Positions 25,429-37,712 of a stretch of 37,891 nt of DNA are shown here, piece by piece. The stretch spans positions 686,341 to 724,231 of the forward strand of contig NZ_HG764815.1 of assembly GCF_001050535.1 (NCBI RefSeq). Reading direction: 5' to 3'. Each line of letters begins with the position of its first letter. Within the stretch, counting starts at the first letter, position 1. The translations under genes were made by a program, and so were the position numbers. This DNA is from Nostocoides australiense Ben110. Its GTDB lineage: Bacteria; Actinomycetota; Actinomycetes; Actinomycetales; Dermatophilaceae. Below the pieces are notes generated by a model that saw only the letters and a list, made by a program, of their open reading frames with translations, ran no database searches and was not told where the DNA came from.

Positions 25429-25590
25429 ATGAACGACGCAATGCACGAAGCGATGACCGATCAGACCACGGCCCTCAACGCCTGTGACTGTCCCAACTGC
25501 GAGGTGGGATGCAGCTGCAACGACTGCGAGTGCACGGACTGCACGTGCCCCAGGTGCTCCCACGACCAGGACGAGGAGCTCGAGGACTGA
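25429..25590 (+). CDS. 53-aa metallothionein-like cysteine-rich protein
   Basis: A short ORF with a perfect GAGGAGG 5 bases before the ATG at 25429, ending at the TGA at 25588. Residues 19-43 hold nine cysteines (19, 21, 24, 28, 30, 33, 35, 38, 40, 43 less one non-Cys: CDCPNC, GCSC, NDCECTDCTCPRC), spaced as CxC and CxxC. His45 and an acidic DQDEELED tail follow. This spacing is typical of metallothioneins that bind Zn, Cu or Cd in thiolate clusters, and it contains no aromatic residue. It ends 13 bases before the ThDP-enzyme gene. I do not recognise a named family. Counted directly, the cysteine positions read 19, 21, 24, 28, 30, 33, 35, 38, 40 and 43, ten in all. Confidence 0.7.
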   Translation: MNDAMHEAMTDQTTALNACDCPNCEVGCSCNDCECTDCTCPRCSHDQDEELED

Positions 25591-25603: not shown

Positions 25604-27261
25604 ATGGGCAAACGGGATCAGGGAAAGGCGCCGAAGCGGCATACGACGACCGAGACCCACGAAGCGCCGACGAGCGACCTGACCGCCCCCGCGCGGACCG
25701 GCGGCGACATCCTCGTCGGCGTGCTGCGCGAGGCGGGCGTCCATGCGGCGTTCGGGGTCGTCAGCATCCACAACCTGCCGCTCGTCGAGGCCGTCGACCG
25801 CGATCTGCGGTTCGTCCCGATGCGTCACGAGGCGGCAGCTGTCAACGCGGCCGACGGTTATGCCCGCGCGAGCGGCGGCGTCGGGGTCGCCCTCACCTCG
25901 ACCGGGACCGGCGCCGGTAATGCCGCCGGGTCCATGCTCGAAGCGCTGACCGCGCAGAGCCGGGTCCTGCACGTGACCGGCAATATCGACGCCGACCTGC
26001 TCGGCGAGCACCGCGGCGCTTATCACGAGGTGCCGAGGCAGTTGCAGATGCTCGATGCGGTATCGGCCCAGGCGCTGCGAATCCAGACCGCACGCCAGGC
26101 TCGCGCCGTCCTGACCGACGCCGTCCAACGACTGCTGACGCCACCGCAAGGACCGGTCAGCGTCGACTGGCCCATCGACCTGCAGTACACCGCCCCCGCC
26201 GCGACATCGAACGGGCGGCTGCGGTCATGCGTCAGGCCAAGCGGCCGTTGATCTGGGCCGGCGGCGGAGCGCGCCGGGTCGGTGCACCCCTCGCCGCGTT
26301 GACGCAGGCGTGGGGAGCGGGCGTATTGACGGGAGCCAACGGACGCGGCGCTGTGCCGGAGGACCACCCCCAGTGTGTGGGCAACTTCGCCACACACGAC
26401 GCACTGGCGGAGTTGATCGAGGACGCCGACTGCCTCCTGACCATCGGAAGTCATCTGCGCGCCAACGAGACTCGCAACTTCGAGCTGCCCCTGCCGAGCA
26501 CGCACATCCAGATCGATGTCGACGAGCAGGCGATCGGCCGCAACTACCCGGTCGCCGTCGGCGTGCGCGCCGAGGCGTCGCGGGCCGTGCCGGCGCTGCT
26601 CGCGGCATTGGGCGACGTCGAGACGGACGCGGCGTGGACTGACCGGATCAGCGCGGCCGCGGGCGCCGCCCGGGCCGCACACAGGGCGGACATCGGCGCC
26701 TACTCCGACATCTGTGACGCCATACGCAACCGGCTACCGCGCAACTCCCCCATCGTTCGCGATGTCACGATCCCCGGCAGTTCCTGGGGCAACCGGCTGC
26801 TGCCCGTCTTCGACCCCACGGACAATGTGTACGCCGCCGGCGGCGGCATCGGTCAGGGCCTGGCCATGGCCATCGGTGCCGCGATCGCCCGGCCCGACGA
26901 CCGGGTGCTCGCTATGATCGGCGACGGCGGCCTGGCCGTGCATCTCGGGGAGCTGGCCGTGCTCGCCGCGGAGCAGCCGGATGTCACCGTCGTGCTCTTC
27001 AACGACGGCGGCTACGGCGTGCTGCGCAATCTGCAGGAGGCCGGCGGCCGGACCCGTCGCGGGGTCGACCTGCACACCCCGGACTTCGCGGCGCTGTCCG
27101 CGGCGTTCGGGCTGCGGCACAAGTTGATCGCCAGCGCCGCGGAGTTCGACAAGGCGCTGAAGAAGGCCGTGGGCCGGCCGGGCCCGACCGTCATCGAGGT
27201 CGACGTGGCGGCGCTGCGGCCCCGGCCGAGGCGCATGGTCCCTCCCGTGAGCATCCCCTAG
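25604..27261 (+). pseudogene. ThDP-dependent (acetolactate synthase/benzoylformate decarboxylase family) enzyme, frameshifted
   Basis: The gene is broken by one frameshift. The first frame (from the ATG at 25604) gives the pyrimidine-binding domain: ILVGVLREAGVHAAFGVVS, catalytic Glu in RHEAAAVNAADGYARAS, and TSTGTGAGNAAGS. The coding sense then moves to a second frame at about 26202/26203, where DIERAAAVMRQAKRPLIW resumes. That frame carries the central domain and the ThDP motif GDGGLAVHLGELAVL ... FNDGGYG. One missing base restores a full protein of about 550 residues. It could be a real pseudogene or a sequencing deletion. The exact reaction is unknown; the family decarboxylates or ligates 2-oxo acids. 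Confidence 0.8.
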
Positions 27262-27313
27262 AAGCACCAGGTCATAGCAGCCCGCTGGGCTGCCCGGGCG
27301 GTACAAAAGGGCC

Positions 27314-28103
27314 ATGAGGCACGACGAGGTGGTCGCATTCATAGACCCGTGGACTGGCCGGATCGTGGCCGCCTCGGTGCACGCGGGGCACGACGTACGC
27401 CCGATCTTGCGGCCGCCATGGTGCTCCCGGAGGCGGACCGGTTCTCGGAGGAAGACCCCTTCACGACCGCATCGCGGATGCCGTCGACAGCCGGGTCATC
27501 ACCCGCCGATCCCGCTTCGAGGTCGACCTCAACCGCCCGCGTCGCGAGGCGGTCTATCGGACCCCCGCGGACGCGTGGGGACTGGAGACCTGGCGCGACG
27601 AGGTCCTCGACGACGAACTCTTCCGCGGCTGCCTCACGATCTGGGACACCTTCTACGAGCAGCTGGCGGACCGCCTGGACCCGGTCGCTATGCGCAGTCC
27701 GTTCGTGCTGCTCGACGTCCACTCCGACAACCACCGACGCCACGGTGCCGACGCGCCACCGGAGCCGGTGGCCGACAATCCGGAGGTCAATGTCGGCACC
27801 GGGTCGGTCGACCGCAGCCGCTTCGGCCCGCTGATCGAGCGCTTCATGACCGACCTCGCGGACCCGTCGCTCGGCTGCGGACCCGTGGACGTGCGGGAGA
27901 ACGTCAAGTTCGAGGGCCGGCAGCTGGCGTGGTGGGTCCACGACCGCTATCCCCGCGTCGGCTGCGTGTTGGCCCTGGAGTTCGAGAAGACCTTCATGGA
28001 CGAATGGACCGGAGTGCCTGACGAGCAGAAGATCGCCTGCGCGACAGCGAATCTCGCCGCACCCCTGCCGGGCATCGAAACCGAGCTGGACCGGCTGCCG
28101 TGA
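27314..28103 (+). pseudogene. N-formylglutamate amidohydrolase family protein with two frameshifts
   Basis: Three successive frames together give one FGase-family protein of about 263 residues. Frame one starts at the ATG at 27314 (FIDPWTGRIVAASVHAGHDVR, first metal-ligand motif). At about 27402/27403 the sense moves to DLAAAMVLPEADRFSEEDPF. At about 27464/27465 it moves again to DRIADAVDSRVITRRSRFEV, through LLDVHSDNHRRHG (second motif), to the TGA at 28101. Each shift equals one missing base. Its stop overlaps the next gene's GTG (GTGA), so the operon junction is intact. FGases cleave formyl- or acyl-amide bonds using zinc. Confidence 0.78.
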
Positions 28104-29181
28104 CATCTCCCGCCGTCGAACTCAGCCCCACCGACCTGGCCGTCGACCACGCCCTGGCTCACCTTTCCTCCGGCATGCGCTTCTTGCTCGAAGTGGCCCC
28201 GGTCGACGCCGACGAGGCGCGCGCGGCATACCTCGACGCAGCGCACCCGACCCGCAGTTTACCTATCGCGAACTCGACGCCGACCCGGACGTCACCGCCG
28301 CCCAACTCGCGGCCATCGACGTCACGAACGTCGAGAACCTCACCCTCGGTCACCTGTTGCGCGCCAAGCACCGCGAGTTGGAGTTGCAGGTCGAAATGCT
28401 CCGGGCGCGCGACAGCGAGGACTTCCTCGGGTTGTCGATCGAGCTGTATGGCAGCGTCTCGCCGAAGCTGCGCGCGCAGGCCGAGCAGGTGCTCGCCGCG
28501 GTACTCGCGGCCGAGTCGGCAGGCTCGGCCCTGGACGCCGAAGCCTTTCTCCTTCTCGCACAAGAGGAAATCGCGCACTATCGGGAGCAAGACCCCGACA
28601 TCGAGATGCACGCGGAGATCCGTCCCGACGCCGTGGGGGTCATGGTCTCGGGCGACACCTTGCTCATCGGGCCCGACTCGGCCGTGCAGCAACGCCGCGC
28701 CGCCGCGCTCATCCATCACGAGGTCGGCACCCACCTCGTCACGCAGGTCAACGGTGCCGCACAGCCGATCAAGGTGCTCGGCACCGGGCTCGCCGGCTAT
28801 GACGAGACCCAGGAGGGCCTGGCAGTTGTCGCCGAGATCGCCTGCGGCGGCTTGACGGCATTCCGGTTGCGGCAGTTGGCATCGCGCGTGCTCACCGTCG
28901 ACCGGCGCGTGGCGGGCGCCAGCTTCCACGAGGCACACGAAGCTCTGGTGAGCGGCGGCATACCGCCGGGCAATGCCTTCACGACGGTCATGCGCGTCTT
29001 CCGCGCGGGCGGCATGACCAAGGACGCGATCTACCTGCGCGGGCTGGTCGACCTGCTCGCCCACCTCCGCGCCGAAGGGCGTCTCGATCGACAACCGCGC
29101 GCTGGCCACCGGCTGACACTGGGGCCAGTGGTCGGCGGACCTTTAGGCGTCCTCGGACCTCAGGGGGCCCCGGACCTTTAG
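28100..29181 (+). pseudogene. QEGLA-motif (DUF1704) metallopeptidase-like protein, frameshifted and C-terminally altered
   Basis: The GTG at 28100 overlaps the preceding stop. Frame one gives MTSPAVELSPTDLAVDHALA through LDAAH. At about 28248/28249 the sense moves by one missing base to DPQFTYRELDADPDVTAAQL. It then runs through HHEVGTHLVTQVNG, an HExxxH zinc site, and DETQEGLAVVAEI, the hallmark of the 'flavohemoglobin expression-modulating QEGLA motif' family. Eukaryotic relatives (MATCAP) are tyrosine carboxypeptidases. After LRAEGRLD the sequence turns into unrelated low-complexity residues, so the usual C-terminal 50-70 residues seem lost. Confidence 0.75.
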
Positions 29182-29191
29182 GCATCCTCGG
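29137..29191. repeat. 20-bp direct repeat at the 3' ends of two convergent genes
   Basis: Copies at 29137-29156 and 29172-29191 (core GGACCTTTAGGC then TCCTCGG) differ at one base. The second copy contains the stop and last codons (EDA) of the hemerythrin-like gene; the first lies in the abnormal tail of the QEGLA gene. This suggests a local duplication that replaced the end of the QEGLA gene. Confidence 0.55.
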
Positions 29192-29789
29192 CCAGCGCGT
29201 CGGCCCGCTTCTTCGCGTCCTCTTCGATGGCCTCCTGCCTCTCGCGCACGGCGGGCGGCGGGATGGCCCCCTCCTTCTCGGCCTTGCGCAGCAGCGCCGC
29301 AACCTGGTCCCGAGAGGCACAACCGTTCTCCAAGAGCGTGTTCCGCATGGTCGCCCACGCGACGCCGACGTCATGTCGCACGCTGTCGGAGACCTCGTCG
29401 CGCGCCGGGTTGAGGATGGTCAGCTCCTCCTCGCAGGAGTGGTGGTTGACGACCTTGGCCAACTTTTCGAGGGCGTCCTCGTATTTCTGCGTGTCGGTGC
29501 CCGTGGCCTCCACGAAGGCGAGCAGCGCCTCGGTGATTTCGGCGTGTTCCTCCTCGCCGTGCTCCTCCTCGTGGGCGGTGATGGCCCGCTTGCTGTGCAG
29601 TTTCGGGTAGACCTCGGCCTCTTCGGCTTCGGCGTGCGCGACGAGCAGTTCCGCGAGCGCCTCGCGGGCGGCGGCGCGATCGCGGTCGTCTCGCCGGCAT
29701 TCGCGCAGCAGGTCCTCGAAAAGACGGTGATCGTCGAGGATCAGTTCGACGATGTCGCCGCCGGTGGGACGGGGGATGTCGTAGGTCAT
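29178..29789 (-). CDS. Hemerythrin HHE cation-binding domain protein
   Basis: 203 residues from the ATG at 29789, preceded by AGGAG. The helices carry the HHE pattern: ELILDDHRLFEDLLREC with the first His, LLVAHAEAEEAEVYPKL (His plus Glu), ITAHEEEHGEEEHAEI, and KVVNHHSCEEELTIL. These give the His/Glu ligands of a di-iron four-helix bundle. A Lys/Ala/Glu-rich tail follows. Such proteins respond to oxygen, nitric oxide or peroxide in some bacteria; here that is inference. The opposite-strand QEGLA family was named for an effect on flavohemoglobin, so an iron/NO theme is possible but not shown. Confidence 0.88.
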   Translation of the reverse strand: MTYDIPRPTGGDIVELILDDHRLFEDLLRECRRDDRDRAAAREALAELLVAHAEAEEAEVYPKLHSKRAITAHEEEHGEEEHAEITEALLAFVEATGTDTQKYEDALEKLAKVVNHHSCEEELTILNPARDEVSDSVRHDVGVAWATMRNTLLENGCASRDQVAALLRKAEKEGAIPPPAVRERQEAIEEDAKKRADALAEDA

Positions 29790-37113: not shown

Positions 37114-37712
37114 ATGTCGGCCAAGCGAATCAGCACCATGACCGCCGCCGTTGCCGCCGCGGCACTCAGCCTCACTGCTTGCGGAGAGGGCAACTCGACC
37201 GGAACCTCCGCCGCGGCCAGCACGGACCGCGCCACCACATCTGTGGCCACCGGCGCGACAGCGTCCGGCGCCAGCAGCAGCGACGGAACGAATAGCGCTG
37301 CGCCGGGCAACGTCGATGTCAAGGTCGGCGACACGATCGACGCGATGGAACTGGGGAAGCGGACCCAGGCGGCTCTCAAGGCAGCCAAGACGGCGCACGC
37401 CGAAATCGCGGACGACAGCTCGGGCACGATGTCGATGGACATCGACATGGCAACGATGGACTTCGCCCTCTCCGGCGACTTGGGCGGCCAGAACTTCGAA
37501 ATCCGCAAGGTGGGGGAGAGGCTGTTCATGGGCGGGATGCCGGATATGCCGGGCGGCAAGAAGTGGCTAAGGGCGGCAAGCAGGACATCATGACGATGAC
37601 CTACTCCACATGGGGCGAACCGGTCGACGTCACGGCCCCTCCGGCCTCGGAAGTCGCGACGATGAGCGATCTCATGTCGGGCCGAAACCCCAGCAGCAGC
37701 ACCAGCAGTTGA
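37114..37712 (+). pseudogene. LprG/LppX-like lipoprotein with internal deletion and frameshift
   Basis: From the ATG at 37114 (GGGGA 5 bases upstream) the protein opens with a signal peptide and lipobox (LSLTACGEG, lipid Cys about 25), a Ser/Thr/Ala linker, then GKRTQAALKAAKTAHAEI and FEIRKVGERLFMGGMPDMPGGKKW. The frame then ends early, at 37593. A different frame from 37569 to the TGA at 37710 reads KGGKQDIMTMTYSTWGEPVD, the usual C-terminus of this family. About 100 central residues are therefore missing. GGGCGGCAAG occurs at both 37551-37560 and 37571-37580 at the junction. In the family, such proteins carry lipids or glycolipids in the envelope; this copy is probably inactive. Confidence 0.7.

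Follow-up and report, generated by a model that had tools for sequence, protein, structure and literature searches.

Probable recent decay of an FGase-QEGLA-ATP-grasp operon and of an adjacent TPP-enzyme gene in Nostocoides australiense Ben110

The segment from 25.6 to 29.1 kb of the window – the whole stretch of 37,891 nucleotides of Nostocoides australiense Ben110 DNA analysed here – most probably (about 0.85) consists of recently decayed, dispensable genes, ordinary pseudogenes for which no special decoding is needed. The lesions are present in this assembly and relatives carry the corresponding genes intact. In the course of events that we favour, an operon of FGase, QEGLA and ATP-grasp genes, intact in sister genomes, would have lost its third gene together with the end of QEGLA, most simply by one deletion; the FGase and QEGLA remnants would have lost single bases at three sites and acquired some substitutions where residues are conserved, and the TPP-enzyme gene upstream would have been broken separately by a deletion of ~60 bases. 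That all the lesions lie in the genome itself, with none of them an error, is inferred, and so are the 3′ loss as a single event and the order of the events. Relatives carry the gene set only patchily, and it is thus dispensable.

Table 1. Broken genes and deletion scar in the window.
Feature	Position in window	Strand	Basis
Broken TPP-dependent enzyme gene, PRK07064-like	25604..27261	+	Pfam TPP_enzyme_M and TPP_enzyme_C; NF005470
Broken FGase-family gene (N-formylglutamate amidohydrolase family)	27314..28103	+	PF05013; tblastn in three frames; conserved-column test
Broken QEGLA/MATCAP-family gene	28100..29090 (end approximate)	+	TIGR02421, PF08014; tblastn; alignment with 70 relatives
Deletion scar region; QEGLA C-terminus and ATP-grasp gene absent	29091..29177		comparison with 70 relatives

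A sequence-only reading of this region had described four single-base losses in three adjacent genes, each in a C^GAY context, and had proposed comparison with the closest strain as a check. Permissive nucleotide alignment is uninformative at the GC content found here, and protein-level comparison (tblastn and profiles) was used; the genomes of the same genus that carry these genes are two, Nostocoides jenkinsii Ben 74 (NZ_HF571038.1) and the MAG G001. The comparison bears out the frame changes at all four sites, as tblastn finds the intact homologues running through every one of them in a single frame and the window changing frame near 26.20, 27.40, 27.46 and 28.24 kb. Three of the four behave like single-base losses, judged from the spacing of tblastn matches against intact relatives: two in FGase, near 27.40 and 27.46 kb, and one in QEGLA, near 28.24 kb. 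The fourth, in the TPP-enzyme gene, does not, for about 20 linker residues are missing with it. The start/stop overlaps said to be preserved between the three genes reduce to one, the GTGA shared by FGase and QEGLA at 28100-28103, which is intact; the TPP-enzyme and FGase genes do not overlap at all (stop at 27261, start at 27314). Nor do the three genes form one operon as proposed. The TPP-enzyme gene occurs in none of the QEGLA loci of 70 relatives and thus lies outside the conserved operon, in which an ATP-grasp gene stands directly 3′ of QEGLA in all 70 relatives that have QEGLA, and FGase directly 5′ of it in 63 of the 67 whose upstream sequence leaves room for it (the other four are non-actinobacterial MAGs).

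Measured against this conserved arrangement, the window shows several lesions that the sequence-only reading did not mention. QEGLA is truncated, its last ~52 residues, which include residues invariant in the 70 relatives, being absent after about 29.09 kb, and an opposite-strand gene (29178-29789) stands 3′ of the remnant in place of the ATP-grasp gene. A search with an ATP-grasp query found no trace of that gene in the window and no match in the 4.26-Mb assembly, and the same search gave matches in five of six other genomes, the sixth (G002) being 83% complete. As the assembly is a draft, 89.8% complete and with its contigs linked by runs of 100 N, the missing match does not prove that the cell lacks the gene. 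Substitutions at conserved sites make up the remainder: FGase carries G129S and Y139D (numbered with an X inserted at each frame break), both in columns where the other 65 actinobacterial sequences show no variation, and only three of the 66 sequences, the window's included, have two changes at invariant columns. These substitutions may be taken as moderate evidence for decay. A functional second copy of QEGLA or FGase, sought in the assembly as a reason for decay, was not found.

The lesion at 26.20 kb is of another kind. The TPP-enzyme gene matches the NF005470 profile over positions 5-172 and then 195-536, in two different frames, and by tblastn the linker of relatives at this site is about 15-22 residues longer. 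The best reading is a single deletion of ~60 bases that would have broken the frame and removed ~20 linker residues, because this accounts for both the lost linker and the frame shift. Close TPP homologues are rare in the order and too few for an invariant-residue test of this gene. We note that in another genome of the same family (G009, 340 contigs) a TPP-enzyme homologue is also split over two frames, at a different place (L005, L179, L180; G009:C85:13531-14579), and that a small Cys-rich open reading frame of 53 amino acids with a metallothionein-like look (CDCPNCEVGCSCNDCECTDCTCPRC; 25429-25590, + strand) lies directly 5′ of the TPP-enzyme gene in the window.

The lesions thus extend beyond single-base indels – to the lost QEGLA end, the lost ATP-grasp gene, the ~60-base TPP deletion and the substitutions at invariant residues – and the orthologues disrupted here are intact in relatives. 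Internal stop codons are absent from the broken pieces, and a relative-rate test gave no sign of relaxed constraint, as the changes unique to the window equal those unique to the sister and exceed them in neither FGase nor QEGLA; both results indicate that the loss is recent. The lack of rate acceleration is also expected under sequencing error, and with no internal stops and no acceleration each single-base loss is indistinguishable in appearance from a consensus error. It is therefore the larger lesions that carry the argument for decay, and each single-base loss taken alone remains unproven.

An unlikely rival is that the draft contig contains local errors of sequencing or assembly, the three single-base losses being false and the missing 3′ part due to a misjoined contig. 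The window (G000:C1:686341-724231) is abutted on both sides by runs of 100 N (686241-686340 and 724232-724331) and is thus exactly one draft contig within a pseudo-chromosome, which counts for error, as does the otherwise good conservation of the broken pieces, with neither stops nor acceleration. (The lipoprotein gene at 37114 and other features at the window ends are possibly cut by the contig end, as window positions 1-37891 are the whole contig.) Strong frame-break calls by a frame-plot HMM, made in sampled stretches rather than whole genomes, are as frequent in the draft sister (5.5 per 100 kb in G003, N. jenkinsii) as in this genome (4.0) and lower in a better assembly (2.75 in G017), with many such calls being gene ends or noise, so that this genome and its draft sister cannot be told apart by these rates. 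A further cluster of calls in this genome lies beside a contig end (L048, 7461-9297), and a frame switch within one and the same sequence context is seen at two places in it (L038, 1569, and L151, 17338), which fits a repeated element with a two-frame gene.

Against error stands the number of independent events of different kinds that it must place within 3.5 kb and nowhere else in the contig: three losses of a base, one deletion of ~60 bases, and the disappearance of a gene end and of a whole gene. Loss of bases in error would leave the invariant FGase residues unchanged, and a misjoined contig does not sit well with the failure to find the ATP-grasp gene elsewhere in the assembly. We prefer decay to plain sequencing error because the QEGLA C-terminus and the ATP-grasp gene are gone, beyond the base losses. 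The earlier observation that no single-base indel occurs elsewhere in the window holds in the HMM scan, in which every switch outside 25.6-29.1 kb falls 0-19 nt from a stop of the old frame and marks a gene end; the detector caught 53 of 60 simulated one-base deletions before the gene-boundary filter and 36 of 60 after it, so that the filter hides some true shifts, and it missed the sites at 27.40 and 27.46 kb, which lie ~62 nt apart near a gene start. The same scarcity of breaks weighs against the third explanation, in which a C^GAY signal would make ribosomes change frame in each of the three neighbouring genes and so complete the proteins, since the junction is frequent and no other such break is seen in the window.

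This decoding explanation is extremely improbable. All four frame changes can be drawn at a C^GAY junction, and if the explanation were true a new decoding signal would be at hand; the evidence points the other way. In relatives the coding sequence of these proteins stays in one frame at the sites and the frameshift is not conserved, the site at 26.2 kb would still be without ~20 residues, and translation of QEGLA would still give a protein without the conserved end. The exact break positions first proposed cannot be held to, as scoring of all placements against family alignments gave near-tied positions over 3-4 codons at the one-base sites, and at 28.24 kb the best-scoring placement lies away from the GAC. 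C^GAY accounts for 3.9% of the codon junctions of this genome, C^GA being the commonest junction type, and would be met by chance at about 11-15% per site over 3-4 junctions, for a motif chosen post hoc; the supposed signal is not rarer than chance. With losses placed only to within 3-4 codons, the commonest junction beside them and one site that fits better elsewhere, C^GAY is not a signal, and that the sites share it does not argue for a common mechanism. We give next to no credence to the suggestion that recoding carries ribosomes past the three single-base shifts, so that FGase would work and QEGLA would be made in a shortened form. The sequence-only reading had itself ranked error or decay ahead of recoding, an order that we retain, with the evidence now in favour of decay. 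On this assembly, neither this TPP enzyme nor the FGase-QEGLA-ATP-grasp set should be attributed to the organism in annotation.

The nearest intact counterpart is the operon of N. jenkinsii (L072), whose FGase and QEGLA proteins are 75-79% identical to those of the window in the longest segments that match. It shares with the window the order of FGase then QEGLA and the GTGA overlap between them, whereas here the third gene and the QEGLA C-terminus are lost and both remaining genes are out of frame. As in ordinary bacterial pseudogenes, we find frame-breaking indels of different sizes, truncation of one gene and loss of its neighbour, substitutions at conserved residues and intact sister orthologues, and no difference from them other than the chance look of a common C^GAY context. 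We conclude that pseudogenes of the ordinary kind have recently formed in a single dispensable operon and next to it.
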